Shown here piece after piece: positions 7,451 to 33,804 of a stretch of 34,422 nt of DNA. The stretch's first letter is position 1; every line of letters starts with the position of its first letter. Under the pieces are notes generated by a model. That model was not told where the DNA came from and did not search any database. It was given only the letters and a program-made list of their open reading frames with translations. The stretch comes from Methanofollis sp. (GTDB lineage Archaea; Halobacteriota; Methanomicrobia; Methanomicrobiales; Methanofollaceae): NCBI RefSeq assembly GCF_028702905.1, contig NZ_JAQVNX010000015.1:1-34422 (forward strand). The letters are read 5' to 3'. Made by a program: the position numbers and the translations under genes.

Positions 7451-8689
7451 ATGGGGGACAGCGGCTGTGATTCACCCGACCCGCAGAACAGCGAAGAACT
7501 CTGCAAGTACCTGCTCGAACGGATCTCCAACCTGGAAAACCGCAACCTGGAACTCAGGGAGCGGATGCGCCAGATGGAGTCTGAAAAGCGGTATGTGGAG
7601 ACGCAGAAGATCCGCTACGAGCGGGAAATGCGGAAATTACGGAGCGAGATCGAACAACTCAGAAGTCCTCCCCTCATTGTCGGTGAGATACTCGACATCA
7701 TCGACAACAACCGCGTCGTGGTCAGGAGCAGTGCAGGCCCGCGTTTCCTTGTCCGGGTATCCCAGTTCATCGAACCGAAGGACCTGAAGGCAGGGAGCAG
7801 GTGCACCCTCAACCAGCAGTCCCTTGCCCTGATCGAGGTGCTCCCGAACACCTACGACCCGCAGGTCTACGGGATGGAACTGGAAGACCGGCCTGAAGAG
7901 CGTTACTCCGATATCGGCGGGCTGGAACCGCAGATCCTGGAGGTGAAGGAGGCTGTCGAACTCCCGCTCACAAAGCCCGAACTCTTCGAGACGGTGGGGA
8001 TCACCCCGCCGAAGGGTGTCCTGCTGTACGGGCCGCCAGGGACAGGCAAGACCCTGCTCGCCCGTGCCGTCGCCCACGAGACGAACGCTCACTTCCTCCA
8101 TGTCGTCGGCTCCGAACTCGTGCAGAAGTACATCGGCGAAGGGGCACGCCTTGTGCGGGAACTCTTCGACCTCGCCCGCGAGAAGGCGCCGACGATCCTC
8201 TTTATCGACGAGATCGACGCCGTCGGGACGCACCGGACGGAGTCCGTCACCTCCGGGGACCGGGAGGTTCAGCGGACCCTGATGCAACTCCTGGCAGGGA
8301 TGGACGGCTTCGAGACACGCGGCGACGTAAAGATCATCGGGGCGACGAACAGGATCGATATCCTCGACCCCGCCCTCCTCAGGCCGGGCCGTTTCGACCG
8401 GATCATCGAGATCCCGCTCCCGGACATCGAGGGGCGCCTCTCGATCCTGAAGATCCACACGAAGGGCATGAACCTGGCAAAGGACGTCGACCTCACCGGG
8501 ATCGCCTGCCAGACCAATGGGCGGAACGGCGCTGACCTCCGTGCGGTCTGCATGGAGGCCGGGATGTTCGCGATCCGGGAGGAGCGGACGACCGTCACCA
8601 ACGAAGACTTCGGGCGGGCGCTCCAGAAGTTCATGGCCGACTTCGAACGTCAACCCCTGAGAAATACAGTCGGCGAGATGTTCGCCTGA
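7451..8689 (+). CDS. pan: Proteasome-activating nucleotidase, paralogue 1 (PAN-A-like)
   Basis: 412-residue AAA+ unfoldase of the PAN/Rpt family, which uses ATP to unfold substrates and feed them to the 20S proteasome. Order of parts: an N-terminal charged coiled coil (about 15-70), an OB domain (about 75-135), then the AAA+ module with Walker A GPPGTGKT (194-201), Walker B ILFIDEID (about 249-256), sensor-1 ATNR and the arginine-finger region LLRPGRFDR. The protein ends EMFA, so the last three residues Met-Phe-Ala lack the tyrosine of the HbYX gate-opening motif that the second paralogue here keeps. ATG 7451 has a strong Shine-Dalgarno sequence. It stands alone, followed by a T-tract terminator. 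Confidence 0.95.
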
Positions 8690-9590: not shown

Positions 9591-10748
9591 TCAGATGTAC
9601 ATCCGGAGATCGCCTGCAACCTCCTTGCGGCTGACCTTCCGGATAGCCTCAAGGAAGTCGTTGTGCTCCACGGCCACGGCATTCCTGCGGACCGCCCGCA
9701 TGCCGGCCTCGCGGCAGACCGCCTGGATCTCGGCGCCGGTCATACCCTCGGCGAGGGGGACGAGCGATTCCAGGTTGACATTGTCAAGGCTCATCTTCCC
9801 GGTGTGGATCTTGAAGATCTCCCGGAGCGAGTCGGCGTCAGGGACCGGGACCTCGATGATCCGGTCGAAACGTCCGGGCCGGAGAATCGCCGGGTCGAGC
9901 ATGTCGACGCGGTTCGTGGCCGCCATGATCCTGATATTGCCGCGGTTGTTGAAGCCGTCCATCTCGGCGAGGAGTTGCATCAGGGTCCGCTGGACCTCGG
10001 CGCTCCCCGAGGTGCCGTCGTTTGTACGCTGGCTCGCGATCGCGTCGATCTCGTCGATGAAGACGATTGCCGGGGCACGCTCCCGCGCGAAGTCGAAGAG
10101 TTCCCGCACCAGCTGCGCCCCTTCGCCGATAAACTTGTGGACGAGTTCCGAGCCCGACATCCTGATGAACTCAGCATGGGCATTGTGCGCCACGGCCTTT
10201 GCGATGAGGGTCTTGCCCGTTCCCGGAGGGCCGTACAGCAGGATGCCCTTCGGGGGCTCGACGCCGACTTTTTCGAAGATCTCGGGCCTGGTGAGCGGGT
10301 ACTCGACCGCCTCGCGGACCTCTTCGATCTCTTCTTTCAGCCCGCCGATCTGCTCGAAAGTGACGCTCGGCGCCTCTTCAAGCTCCATCACCCTGACACG
10401 GGAGTCGTAGGTGGTGCCGATGGGCTTCACAATGGAAAGAGCATTGTTCACAGCGACCTTCATGCCCACACCCAGCCCGTCATAGAGTTCGGGGTTGACC
10501 CGTGTGATGTATTCCTGGTTGTTTCCCTGCTGCCTGAGATAGACCTCGCCGTCACCGAGTTTGTCAACAACAGCTGCAACAAAGAGCGGGACCCGCTTGA
10601 GCTGGTTGTTTTCCCGCCGCAGCTGGTTGACCTCTTTCTGGAGCAACTCGTTCTGCATCTTCAGGTCCAGGACCTTCGCCTTCATTTCCTGGACCTGGAG
10701 TTTATACAGATTATTGTCATTGTTGACGCCAATCACAGAGTCTTCCAT
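9591..10748 (-). CDS. pan: Proteasome-activating nucleotidase, paralogue 2
   Basis: 385-residue PAN/Rpt ATPase. It has an N-terminal coiled coil (about 12-52), an OB domain (about 53-112), and an AAA+ domain with Walker A GPPGTGKT (173-180), Walker B IVFIDEID (about 228-235), sensor-1 ATNR and LRPGRFDR. The C-terminus is RMYI; Met-Tyr-Ile is a good HbYX motif, which docks in the 20S alpha-ring pockets and opens the gate. It diverges from paralogue 1 mainly in the N-terminal coiled coil and the C-terminal tail. The ATG at 10748 is about 24 nt from a minus-strand TATA box (GTATAAAG), so the mRNA is likely leaderless. A small uncharacterised gene follows after 7 nt. Confidence 0.95.
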   Translation of the reverse strand: MEDSVIGVNNDNNLYKLQVQEMKAKVLDLKMQNELLQKEVNQLRRENNQLKRVPLFVAAVVDKLGDGEVYLRQQGNNQEYITRVNPELYDGLGVGMKVAVNNALSIVKPIGTTYDSRVRVMELEEAPSVTFEQIGGLKEEIEEVREAVEYPLTRPEIFEKVGVEPPKGILLYGPPGTGKTLIAKAVAHNAHAEFIRMSGSELVHKFIGEGAQLVRELFDFARERAPAIVFIDEIDAIASQRTNDGTSGSAEVQRTLMQLLAEMDGFNNRGNIRIMAATNRVDMLDPAILRPGRFDRIIEVPVPDADSLREIFKIHTGKMSLDNVNLESLVPLAEGMTGAEIQAVCREAGMRAVRRNAVAVEHNDFLEAIRKVSRKEVAGDLRMYI

Positions 10749-14264: not shown

Positions 14265-15518
14265 TCAGTCGGCCCCGCATTTTAGAATGTGCAGGGCGCC
14301 GAGCAGATCGTGGCCGCTCTCCCCGATGACGGCGAAAGATGCGGCACGTCCGTTCATGCTCTTCTCGACGATCCCGTCCCTCTGGAGCCTGTCCATGTGG
14401 CGGGAGACGGCAGGGCCGGAGATGCCGAGGTGCACCGCGATTTCCTGCCGCGAGAGGCCGGGCGTCTGGAGGAGGACCGTGAGGATCTCTCGCCTGGTGC
14501 TGTTCCAGAGAGCGGCAAGGACTGTTCGTTCACGCTCTGAATATCTCCCATTGTTCTCATAGTAGCGGCAGCAACCTCCCGTCTGTTCGACTGCGATCTT
14601 CCCTGCCTGCCTGAGGACCGCGAGGTGATAGCGGAGGGTGCCGGGATGTGTCCGGGTGATCAGGGCGATCTTCTCCCTGTGTATTCCAGGGTTATCCAGG
14701 ATGGCCTGGTAGACCCGGCACCGTGTCGCATTATCAAGGATGTTTTTCTGCGTGACTCGCCGGTAGCCAAGGCTCAACCAGATGCGAAGCGCGAGGAATG
14801 ACTCGATGGGGATGATGACCAGGTTTGCAAGGAGAAAGGCGAGGTTCATGAGAAAATCGGATGTTGTGGGAGGGACCCGCTCCCACACACCTTTCGGCTT
14901 CCCGAAGGCGAAGGTGTCTTCAGGGAGGCCGGCATTTACCCTGAGGTTCCGGTACTCCGCCGACCGCACGAGGGCCCCCGTGCAGTCGTAGCCCTCGACA
15001 CACAGGACCAGCATCGTTTCCCGGTCGATCGAGATGGAGAGACGTGCGGTGTCAGGGGGGAAGGGGTCGACGGCACCAACGGGTACGACATCGACGACAG
15101 GGACGGTCCTGCCGTCCAGGACGGCCTCGTGCATGCTCGTGACCCTGCCGGTTGAGAGGGCGGCGATCCCCGCCGCCATATAGTCGCCGTCCAGGGGTTT
15201 TTCCACCCCTGTCGATCCCATCGAACACTGCGGAGGCACATGCCACCATGCAGACCCCTCCGACAGGACCGCAAGGGCGGCGCCGTGATGGAGCGACGGG
15301 TCGTCGTATTCGGCCCTGAAACTGCCTGGCGGCATGGCCGCCACCCTGACGACCTCGTCCCTGTCCGGGCCGTGAACGGTGACGGTGGCCGTATAATCGG
15401 CGACCTGATGGTACGCCGCGACCGCACCGGCGGCGACCTCTTCGGCAGGCGCCGCCGCACATACTCCTGCGAGGGAGCACGCGAGGACCAGGACGAACCA
15501 TGCACAGAGTGTTCTCAT
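14265..15518 (-). CDS. Membrane-anchored regulator: exported LolA-like domain, TM segment, two winged HTH domains
   Basis: 417 residues. Counting from the alternative GTG start at 15527 (add 3), the order is as follows. A signal peptide (about 1-26, ending GVCAAAP). A LolA/MucB-like beta domain (about 30-215; YHQVADYTATVTVHG, PGSFRAEYDDPS, SISIDRETMLVLCVEGYD). One transmembrane span (about 227-254; MNLAFLLANLVIIPIES). Then two cytoplasmic ArsR-like winged helices (about 262-330 and 335-402; PGTLRYHLAVLRQAGK and SGPAVSRHMDRLQRDGIVEK). The first winged helix ends CCRYYENNG, common in archaeal tandem-HTH regulators. The topology suggests a one-component sensor reading envelope lipid or lipoprotein state. 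ATG 15518 lies just after the start predicted from a TATAAA-like box at 15546-15553. It diverges from a membrane protein gene across a palindromic site. Ligand and targets are unknown. Confidence 0.85.
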   Translation of the reverse strand: MRTLCAWFVLVLACSLAGVCAAAPAEEVAAGAVAAYHQVADYTATVTVHGPDRDEVVRVAAMPPGSFRAEYDDPSLHHGAALAVLSEGSAWWHVPPQCSMGSTGVEKPLDGDYMAAGIAALSTGRVTSMHEAVLDGRTVPVVDVVPVGAVDPFPPDTARLSISIDRETMLVLCVEGYDCTGALVRSAEYRNLRVNAGLPEDTFAFGKPKGVWERVPPTTSDFLMNLAFLLANLVIIPIESFLALRIWLSLGYRRVTQKNILDNATRCRVYQAILDNPGIHREKIALITRTHPGTLRYHLAVLRQAGKIAVEQTGGCCRYYENNGRYSERERTVLAALWNSTRREILTVLLQTPGLSRQEIAVHLGISGPAVSRHMDRLQRDGIVEKSMNGRAASFAVIGESGHDLLGALHILKCGAD

Positions 15519-15545
15519 CGTCGACACAGGTAGGTCGGGCCGGGT

Positions 15546-15629
15546 CTATTTATTCATTCTGTACCGATCGGTTACAGGTCAGGCCTTCGGAAACAGGACG
15601 TGTAACCGATCCTGCGATAAAGTCTTTAT
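15546..15629. promoter_or_regulatory. Divergent promoters with an 11-bp inverted-repeat operator candidate
   Basis: GATCGGTTACA at 15566-15576 and its exact reverse complement TGTAACCGATC at 15601-15611 are separated by 24 bp. The left arm also contains the palindrome CCGATCGG (15564-15571). The minus-strand TATA box of the regulator (GAATAAATAG, about 15546-15555) lies on one side. The plus-strand box of the membrane protein gene (GATAAAG, about 15616-15622) lies on the other. Each arm thus sits next to one promoter's BRE. The site probably binds the winged-helix regulator; the binding itself is inferred. Confidence 0.6.
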
Positions 15630-15653
15630 GCGTCTGGAATGGATAGTTGCCCT

Positions 15654-16664
15654 ATGTCCACGGGTGTAACAGGTCCCACCGTTTCCGAGGTCGAGATCAC
15701 GTCGGTCTCTCTCCGGTCGTGTGTCCTGATGGCGGCGACGCTCTCCCTGGTGGTCGGCGTCGTACAGGGCTTCATGGTGCTGCCGACGGCGATCAACGAG
15801 ACTATCCCCGTGACAACAGCACAGGGAGAGGTGCTCAGGGCTCTCGGTTACCAGGTGCTCTATGTCGTGCCCCTTCTCAACGTCGTACACGCGATCATCT
15901 TTGCAGCGCTCGCGGCGACCCTGTACAACCTCGCCGCCAGCAGATTCGGCGGGGCCGTCGTGAGGGCGCAACCGGGAACCATGGCAGAAGGGACATGGGC
16001 TATCCGCGAGATCGGTGTTTTTCCGGCGCTGAAGATCGGCGTCTGCCTCTCCCTCGCACTCATGGCCCTCCAGACCCTCATATACGAGTGTGTCGGCTGG
16101 ATCGGATCTATTATGTGGCCTCTCTCATGGACACCCATCCTGTACGGCGCTACGCCCGAATTTATTCTGGTCATGCTCATCACCTGGATATTCGTCGCTG
16201 TACTAAGCGGCATCTTCATCGGCGGTGTGTGTGTCGTCCTGTACGACCTCGCCGCCGTCATCATCGGCGGGGTGAGGGTGACGGCCCGCACCCACGGGAA
16301 CGGAGATCCGGACAGGGAGAACACCTCTGAAAACAGTGTGGAGATGGCGGCGGTCGTGCCCAGGTCAGTCGCCCGTACGATGAGCATTGTGGGTCTCGGG
16401 GCGGGCTTCATGGCCGGAGTCTCCACAATCCTCCAGAAAAGCGGGATCTTTCCTCTCCTCGGCGCGGAGGCGGGCGGGTTCGCGGGGAGTACGCCTGCGG
16501 TCGTCGCCGGTGCTCTCCTGTTCGGCATCGTGCTCTATGGCATTGCAGGTGGTGTCGGGGGTTACGTCATCGCCGTGCTGTACAACTCCATCGCCCGCTT
16601 TGCCGGGGGAACGACCTTCGTACTGGAAAAAAAGGATAGCGGGGCCCCTCACCCGAGGGGATAG
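15654..16664 (+). CDS. Polytopic membrane protein with three DUF3566-like repeats
   Basis: 336-residue integral membrane protein without a known function. Three units of similar plan are visible. Each has a hydrophobic helix near its start and ends in a second hydrophobic helix followed by a Tyr-Asn/Asp-x-x-Ala-x-x-Gly-Gly motif: LYNLAASRFGGAVV (about residue 90), LYDLAAVIIGGVRV (about 200) and LYNSIARFAGGTTF (about 315). This motif recalls DUF3566/transmembrane-anchor repeats; the family name is tentative. A polar loop (TARTHGNGDPDRENTSEN) links units two and three. ATG 15654 was chosen over 15639 from TATA spacing. It faces the membrane-anchored regulator and is probably controlled by it. 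Its end overlaps pelota by 16 bp. Confidence 0.75.
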   Translation: MSTGVTGPTVSEVEITSVSLRSCVLMAATLSLVVGVVQGFMVLPTAINETIPVTTAQGEVLRALGYQVLYVVPLLNVVHAIIFAALAATLYNLAASRFGGAVVRAQPGTMAEGTWAIREIGVFPALKIGVCLSLALMALQTLIYECVGWIGSIMWPLSWTPILYGATPEFILVMLITWIFVAVLSGIFIGGVCVVLYDLAAVIIGGVRVTARTHGNGDPDRENTSENSVEMAAVVPRSVARTMSIVGLGAGFMAGVSTILQKSGIFPLLGAEAGGFAGSTPAVVAGALLFGIVLYGIAGGVGGYVIAVLYNSIARFAGGTTFVLEKKDSGAPHPRG

Positions 16665-31716: not shown

Positions 31717-32702
31717 TGCGGGTCGCCATTCTCGGTCTCGGGTCTGTGGGACGGGGCGTCGCTTCGATGCTCGCCAGGAAGGGCCTCGGGATCACGGTCA
31801 CCGGCATCGCCGACTCGAAGAGCGGGGTCTGTGACCCTGCGGGCATCGACATCGCCGCGGTGCTTGAGAAGAAGGCGAAGACCGGCCTCTGCGGCGACCC
31901 GGCCGTGACGGCCCGGGCGATCGCGGAGGGCGGCGAGTACGATGTCCTCGTCGAGGTGACGCCCACCGACGTGGAGACCGGCGAACCGGCCCTCACCCAT
32001 ATCAGGGCGGCCCTCGCCATGGGAAAGCACGTCGTCACCTCGAACAAGGGGCCGATGGCCCTCTACTTCAGGGACCTGACGGCCCTGGCAGAGGAGCATG
32101 GCGTACAACTCAGGTACGAGGCGACGGTCTGCGGGGCGATCCCGATCATCCAGACCATCCAGCACGGCCTTGCCGGCAACACCGTCCACGCGGTCTATGG
32201 CGTCATGAACGGAACCTGCAACTATATCCTCACCAGGATGGCGGACGAGGGCCTCACCTACGACCAGGCCCTTGCCGAGGCGCGGGAACTCGGTTATGCC
32301 GAGGCCGACCCGACCTTCGACGTGAAGGGGATCGATACCGCCCTCAAACTGGTCATCCTCGCCAATACGATCTGGAATAACGGCGTCACCCTGAAGGACG
32401 TCGAGTGCACGGGCATCGACCTCCTGACTGCGGAGGCGCTGACCCTTGCCGGGAGCCAGAACTCTACCATCAGGCTCATCGGCGAGGTGGTGCCGGAGAT
32501 GGGGCTGCTGCGGGTCTCGCCGCGGATCCTCCCGAAGAAACATCCTCTTGTCGTCCGCGACACCCTGAACGCGGTGACTGTCGTCACCGATATGGCCGGG
32601 GCGATCACCGAGGTCGGGAAGGGGGCGGGGTCGGTGGAGACGGCGAGCGCCGTCATCGGCGACCTGCTCTTCATCAAGAACTGTCATGTCAAGGGTCATT
32701 GA
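31713..32702 (+). CDS. hom: Homoserine dehydrogenase, short form without ACT
   Basis: 329-residue enzyme reducing aspartate semialdehyde to homoserine for threonine and methionine synthesis. Features are the dinucleotide fold RVAILGLGSVGRGVA, VEVTPTDVETG, GKHVVTSNKGPMAL with the catalytic Lys, and the substrate-binding YGVMNGTCNYILTRM and GYAEADPTFDVKGIDTALKL. Many homologues carry a C-terminal ACT domain; this one ends without it. The ACT domain is in the coupled upstream gene. A strong GGAGG precedes ATG 31713. Its 3' end overlaps the next gene by 17 nt. Confidence 0.95.
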   Translation: MMRVAILGLGSVGRGVASMLARKGLGITVTGIADSKSGVCDPAGIDIAAVLEKKAKTGLCGDPAVTARAIAEGGEYDVLVEVTPTDVETGEPALTHIRAALAMGKHVVTSNKGPMALYFRDLTALAEEHGVQLRYEATVCGAIPIIQTIQHGLAGNTVHAVYGVMNGTCNYILTRMADEGLTYDQALAEARELGYAEADPTFDVKGIDTALKLVILANTIWNNGVTLKDVECTGIDLLTAEALTLAGSQNSTIRLIGEVVPEMGLLRVSPRILPKKHPLVVRDTLNAVTVVTDMAGAITEVGKGAGSVETASAVIGDLLFIKNCHVKGH

Positions 32703-33804
32703 GAAGAGGCGGGACATTCTCGCCCTGATGCGGAGATCGACTCTCGAAAACGGGCATTTCACGGTGCAGGAGATCGCGGAGGGGAGCGCCCTGCCGCGGA
32801 GCACGGTGCAGGACTGGGTGAACCGTCTCCTCGACGAGGGGTGCATCGTCCAGAAGGAGGAGAGGCGGGGGCGGCACCCGGCCGCGTATGCCGTCGCCTC
32901 GGCCCTTCCCGCGAGCGCGTGCCGGCGGATCTTCACGACCGTCGACGGCGACAGGGTGGAGTGCTACCATGAGTGCCTGAGCAGCGGGTGCGCCGCCTTC
33001 TGCGCATACCACCATGGCCGGGCAGGCGGGGCGCTCGTCCATGTGCAGAGGGACGGCACCCTCCTGCGGGAGTGCGGCACCCTCACCGAGCACGAGGTGG
33101 AGATCGGCCTCGCGCCCCGGCCTGCCGTGGGCGTGGTCGGGATCAGGCGGGAGGGGGACGAGATCGTGCAGAGGATCCGGTGCACCGGCGGCCCGGCCTA
33201 CTCCCTCACCGACCAGATGGCCGAGGCGGAGGGGGTCTGCTCGGTCGTGACCAGGAAGGTCGAGGGGGGGATCGTCGAGGGCGAGGTGCGGACGCGGGCC
33301 CTCGTCCTGGTCGGGATCGGCGTCGACGACACCGACAGTGCGGAAGGAGGGGCGACTTTTGCCCTGGCCCTCGCCCTCCTCCAGCACCTCAGCACCCTGG
33401 ACGGGGTGATCCCGATCGGCCACAGGGTGGCGATGCTCAAGCCCGACCTGCCGGAGAGGACGGCGGGCAACTCGTGCAGTTATATCGAACTCGCTGCCGA
33501 CCAGGCCGCCTGCCCCGGCATCGCGGAGAGGGCCCGCCGCTTCGTCGCCGCCGAGGCCCTCTCCCCTGAATGGGGGATTGCCCTGCGGCACGGCTTCTGC
33601 CCTCTCCCCGAATTGCGGGCCTTCGGCGCCCGTGCGAGGGCCGAGGTGGTCACCGTCGAGGAGGCGCGGGAGGTCGCCGCCCGGAACGGCGTTCAGGTCT
33701 GCGGAGGCCGCGGCGTCATCGGGGCCCTCGCCGCGGTGGCCCTGCGGGGTCTTCCGAACAGGATCCTCCTCGACCCGTTCGCGCCGGTGAATCGGGCGCC
33801 GTGA
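32686..33804 (+). CDS. HTH protein fused to a TiaS/Mmp11-like DTD domain
   Basis: 372 residues. The N-terminal about 70 form a winged helix (FTVQEIAEGSALPRSTVQDW). A cysteine-bearing middle (ECYHECLSSGCAAFCAYHHG) and a VGVVGIRREGDEI section follow. The last half (about 205-372) contains VGIGVDDTDSAEGGATFALA and AGNSCSYIEL. The GxDDTDS motif is shared with TiaS (tRNA-Ile2 agmatinylcytidine synthetase, where it binds ATP) and with the methanogenesis-marker 11 family. The protein lacks an obvious zinc ribbon of TiaS, so that enzyme is unlikely. It overlaps homoserine dehydrogenase by 17 nt and may link amino-acid state to transcription. Function is unresolved. Confidence 0.65.
   Translation: MSRVIEKRRDILALMRRSTLENGHFTVQEIAEGSALPRSTVQDWVNRLLDEGCIVQKEERRGRHPAAYAVASALPASACRRIFTTVDGDRVECYHECLSSGCAAFCAYHHGRAGGALVHVQRDGTLLRECGTLTEHEVEIGLAPRPAVGVVGIRREGDEIVQRIRCTGGPAYSLTDQMAEAEGVCSVVTRKVEGGIVEGEVRTRALVLVGIGVDDTDSAEGGATFALALALLQHLSTLDGVIPIGHRVAMLKPDLPERTAGNSCSYIELAADQAACPGIAERARRFVAAEALSPEWGIALRHGFCPLPELRAFGARARAEVVTVEEAREVAARNGVQVCGGRGVIGALAAVALRGLPNRILLDPFAPVNRAP

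Follow-up and report, generated by a model that had tools for sequence, protein, structure and literature searches.

Our analysis points to a membrane protein of Methanofollis that is probably a one-component transmembrane regulator, with an exported LolA-fold sensor and a tandem winged helix (wHTH) that would act on a predicted operator and control both its own gene and a divergent neighbour. The gene lies in a stretch of 34,422 nucleotides (the window), which makes up the whole of contig C15 in a draft genome of 2.4 Mb and 190 contigs. The minus strand is open here for 417 codons, while the plus strand of 14265–15518 contains several stops. The ATG at 15518 is common to the related genomes G039 and G051; an alternative in-frame GTG start is present at 15527. 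A preliminary description of this DNA had read an unbroken frame running from a signal peptide through a LolA-like domain and a transmembrane (TM) span to two winged helices, and this frame was confirmed on the minus strand. The features of the locus are as follows.

14268–15518, minus strand: gene of the LolA-TM-tandem-wHTH regulator, 417 aa, with the stop codon at 14265–14267
15453–15518, minus strand: predicted signal peptide, residues 1–22, MRTLCAWFVLVLACSLAGVCAA (hydropathy, alignment, inspection)
14877–15452, minus strand: predicted exported LolA-fold domain, residues 23–214 (AlphaFold2, Foldseek, profile against the PDB, homologues)
14772–14864, minus strand: predicted transmembrane span, residues about 219–249, followed by a YRR juxtamembrane motif
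14517–14729, minus strand: first winged helix, residues 264–334, HVO_0163 N-terminal HTH type (PF24266)
14331–14504, minus strand: second winged helix, residues 339–396, HTH_24/ArsR type (Pfam)
15547–15555, minus strand: TATA-like box for the regulator, preceding its ATG at 15518 by about 30 nt (inspection)
15566–15580, plus strand: candidate operator half-site GATCGGTTACAGGTC, beside the regulator's TATA-like box
15597–15611, minus strand: other half-site of the candidate operator (reverse complement GATCGGTTACACGTC), a short way upstream of the polytopic gene's TATA-like box
15616–15629, plus strand: TATA-like box for the polytopic protein, preceding its ATG at 15654 by about 30 nt (inspection)
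15654–16664, plus strand: divergent gene, encoding a polytopic membrane protein of 336 aa (in the ORF list it begins at 15639)

With a TM region and a DNA-binding domain predicted in one chain, the protein has the make-up of a transmembrane transcription regulator, and its first winged helix scored 51.2 bits against PF24266 (Pfam cut-off 31). We rejected a lipobox in the signal peptide, as its GVC is GVS in G051. A full-length AlphaFold2 model made with six orthologues was poor (pLDDT 51). Elsewhere in the window, two proteasome-activating-nucleotidase-like AAA ATPase genes were seen by eye within 3.5 kb (7451–8689, plus strand, and 9591–10748, minus strand), and the product of a plus-strand gene at 32686–33804 has an HTH-like segment at its N terminus and, after it, a region with a VGIGVDDTD motif.

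The LolA models in Pfam gave no match from the window protein alone, and the assignment of the exported domain is based instead on homologues, a profile and the predicted fold. Structure prediction, proposed in the preliminary description as a check on its LolA-like reading, bore that reading out: the AlphaFold2 model of the exported domain (pLDDT 87, pTM 0.84) retrieved with Foldseek, among the matches listed, almost exclusively LolA, RseB/MucB and LprG structures in the PDB, at TM-scores of about 0.5–0.64. A profile of 18 sequences matched 20 PDB sequences, which were LolA, lipoprotein-sorting, RseB or other LolA-superfamily proteins plus one that is uncharacterised and whose entry carries the name DUF1329. 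At the same time, 14 of the 18 alignment members matched Pfam LolA_like at E 0.1 or better, and a stand-alone homologue of the domain (36% identity, E 1e-18) scored above the cut-off of that family. By model and by sequence, then, the exported part is a predicted LolA-fold domain, with the half-barrel of the LolA/LolB type that defines the superfamily. It is not a soluble periplasmic shuttle such as LolA itself, being fused to a TM span and a predicted cytoplasmic wHTH. No PF03550 match, which would indicate the partner LolB, was found in the genome, the E. coli control being positive; the LolB receptor occurs in some Gram-negatives only. An enzyme, VioE, has the LolA fold as well.

The divergent gene encodes a polytopic membrane protein that matched no Pfam family over its cut-off, giving just a sub-threshold match to DUF3566. 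It contains three LY[N/D]-x5-7-GG segments, at residues 90, 196 and 309, and its sequence looks like a triplicated two-TM module. The gene was found in every one of the six Methanofollis genomes with the fused regulator and in no genome of the six without it, a joint presence and absence that represents few independent events in one genus; outside the genus there was one weak partial match. The pair is still together in G021, where the far flank has been rearranged. In G045 the flanking genes are 96–100% identical to those of the window and both genes of the pair are missing, with about 1.2 kb lacking a convincing gene where they would be, and in G027 and G057 the genes flanking this position nearly abut. 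Judged from these sequence comparisons, the two genes behave as a two-gene module, and loss of the pair in some species seems more likely than repeated gain, since it sits at the same place in two deep groups.

The region between the two genes contains an inverted repeat whose 15-nt arms are complementary at 14 of 15 positions. When this intergenic sequence was shuffled 20,000 times, perfect 11-bp repeat arms arose in 15 cases, and the core pattern of the repeat occurs once in the genome. Its arms are retained in G039 and mostly in G051; the repeat is strong in three closely related genomes only and weak in the remaining three. The blocks GTT[A/T]CAGGTC and GTG[A/T]A[A/G]C[C/T]GATC can still be aligned in G033 and G015, despite proteins that are only about 42% identical. 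The half-sites read GTTACA/GTTACA in the window group versus GTTTCA/GCTTCA in the distant group, the A of GTTACA having become T in both half-sites of G033 and G015, and such a concerted change is as expected if one protein reads both of them. Each half-site is located just upstream of a TATA-like box, which fits either an activator or an occluder of TFB. In G021 the half-sites are about 560 bases apart, each beside its own gene. The spacer there (L081, between about 9047 and 9719) consists of about 560 bp of GC-rich repeat-like DNA, and DNA resembling it occupies the place of the module in G045 (L137, 6959–8140).

The observations to be accounted for are thus the LolA fold, the single-chain fusion, purifying selection (see below), joint presence or absence with the neighbour, and conserved, co-varying half-sites, from which, as the best explanation, we infer the topology, the binding to the repeat, the sign of regulation and the signal. 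The LolA-fold domain would be exported and act as a sensor between the membrane and the S-layer, a single TM helix would pass the signal inward, and the cytoplasmic tandem winged helix would bind the repeat GATCGGTTACAGGTC/GACGTGTAACCGATC between the regulator and polytopic genes; the bound regulator would then control its own gene and the divergent polytopic gene. The signal may come from a lipidic or lipoprotein ligand bound in the cleft of the LolA domain, or from the polytopic partner by direct contact. Our first guess is a lipid or lipoprotein, because LolA and LprG are lipid carriers (PMC6363788) and MucB senses lipids (PMC7400510), although it is from the modelled fold only that we infer lipid sensing by this domain. 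A more specific version, which we put forward tentatively, is a one-chain archaeal envelope-lipid sensor, in which the LolA cleft would bind an isoprenoid lipid or lipoprotein anchor and directly switch a membrane-bound transcription factor, with a dedicated polytopic effector gained or lost as a two-gene module. If true, a one-chain sensor would do alone what RseB-RseA-sigmaE does in several proteins.

The main competing explanation, possible but not the one we expect, is that the LolA domain is a protein-contact module that docks the polytopic partner or a lipoprotein, the partner being the real receptor. Such docking would fit the strict pairing of the two genes, and it has parallels in ToxR/ToxS and RseB/RseA; RseB is reported to bind RseA through a LolA-type fold (literature quoted in PMC6363788). 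On the other hand, LolA-fold proteins of known function mostly hold a hydrophobic ligand, as do LolA and LprG, and MucB senses lipids (PMC7400510). Activation by proteolysis, with the LolA domain guarding a cleavage site and the wHTH part being released, much as RseB guards RseA, seems improbable to us: the LolA-like MucB does shield an anti-sigma factor from a protease (PMC7400510), but many transmembrane regulators work from the membrane without cleavage.

LolA, TM and tandem wHTH are found in one chain in 6 of 12 Methanofollis genomes, at 38–97% identity; identity to the window regulator is 97% in G039, 76% in G051 and about 42% in G033, G015 and G021, the last three being assemblies of one or two contigs. 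Compared with G051, the fusion is under purifying selection, the LolA part having a dN/dS of 0.27 and the wHTH part one of 0.23. We therefore doubt, even more than we doubt cleavage, that the fusion is recent and of little consequence, with the wHTH acting as in the short-stub paralogues and the LolA domain as a passenger; a short exported stub does suffice in most paralogues, but selection on the LolA part is about the same as on the wHTH part, and two deep groups, about 38% identical, both retain the LolA part. That an artefact of assembly or annotation joined two genes in a genome of 190 contigs is refuted, as nearly as such a thing can be, by the same single frame in the complete or near-complete genomes G033, G015, G021 and G039. 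Among the matches listed, a full-length profile found no fusion outside the Methanofollis orthologues in 232 genomes of the class and 393 of the phylum, in a search that scored the best few candidates per genome and may miss rare fusions. The preliminary description had named a search for homologues keeping LolA, TM and tandem HTH in one chain as a further check; because of these homologues and the predicted LolA fold, its reading as a membrane-bound one-component regulator is well supported, and what it missed were the TM-wHTH regulator family and the divergent partner gene.

The TM-wHTH half has homologues in 102 of 150 genomes of the order at E 1e-10. These belong to a Methanomicrobiales family (HVO_0163_N type) with signal peptide, stub, TM and tandem wHTH, whose TM and wHTH half is homologous to that of the Methanofollis regulator, and in most of the homologues read, an exported stub of about 20–40 residues stands where the Methanofollis protein has its LolA domain. 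Short-stub members match the window regulator at E 1e-25 to 1e-47. A P-x-[E/D] plus a basic residue in the TM span and a juxtamembrane LG-x-R are widely kept across the family, and the window regulator has the P-x-[E/D] TM, the LG-x-R and the two wHTHs. Other tandem-wHTH homologues, in L018, L027 and f5/f3 genomes like them, carry a signal peptide and a weak TM span and, in place of the stub or LolA, a long low-complexity stretch that is exported.

The LolA half occurs elsewhere as separate lipoproteins, several with a DUF4367 domain. The window genome also encodes a stand-alone LolA-like protein of its own, on contig C10. These archaeal LolA-DUF4367 lipoproteins (Pfam LolA_like) have a homologous LolA domain and are lipid-anchored, separate and without an HTH, whereas the fused regulator has no lipobox and, among the Pfam matches listed, no DUF4367. 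Of the 45 stand-alone LolA matches in the order, 19 have a TM-wHTH gene no more than 8 kb away, where 0.7 would be expected, in a count that ignores relatedness and covers at least three locus types (genera g4, g12 and g1); 18 of these 19 neighbour pairs are divergent. Since stand-alone LolA genes often adjoin TM-wHTH genes, the fusion unites parts that evolution keeps together elsewhere. No wHTH was fused to a stand-alone LolA in the approximately 60 frames examined. Genus g4 (L064-L066, L071, L072, L078) has a conserved divergent locus in which a TM-wHTH gene stands opposite several genes for exported or membrane proteins and which also holds a LolA-DUF4367 lipoprotein gene facing the TM-wHTH gene. 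In other archaeal families of the phylum (L114, L115, L120, L150, L152), we saw LolA-like genes arrayed in tandem, two to four at a time. We looked for a LolCDE analogue beside the separate LolA lipoproteins and rejected it: the neighbours scanned had no ABC-transporter domain and were CarboxypepD_reg-like, NEW3-like or of no Pfam family, the choice of frame being unsure in these GC-rich loci. G092 has an EamA-type transporter on the regulator's far side.

Transmembrane transcription regulators such as ToxR, CadC, TcpP and the archaeal ArnR/ArnR1 likewise combine a DNA-binding domain and TM in one chain, and a census found them enriched in Methanomicrobia, with no mention of LolA in its main text (PMC10269533). 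The Methanofollis regulator differs in having a tandem wHTH at its C-terminus as the DNA-binding part and a predicted sensor that is exported and LolA-fold, unlike ArnR, whose HTH is N-terminal and whose two TM spans are C-terminal (PMC6396743). RseB/MucB also uses a LolA-like fold in envelope-stress sensing, but it is a soluble two-domain periplasmic protein that works through a separate anti-sigma factor, whereas the regulator has a single LolA domain within its own chain, with no C-terminal small domain. The VtrA/VtrC co-component system similarly couples a membrane-anchored wHTH to an extracytoplasmic amphipath-binding beta-structure (PMC9214523), but does so with two proteins, a different fold and an inverted domain order. 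The class of regulator and both halves are thus already known; the LolA-TM-tandem-wHTH combination was not found described in the literature searched, of which coverage was partial.

LolA-fold proteins are widespread in archaea, where they have no known function (PMC6363788), and archaeal envelope-stress sensing is poorly understood. Taken together, the fusion and the side-by-side position of the separate genes in relatives link the LolA lipoproteins of archaea with membrane-bound regulators, and they yield a candidate operator, a partner gene and a signal class that are specific and testable.
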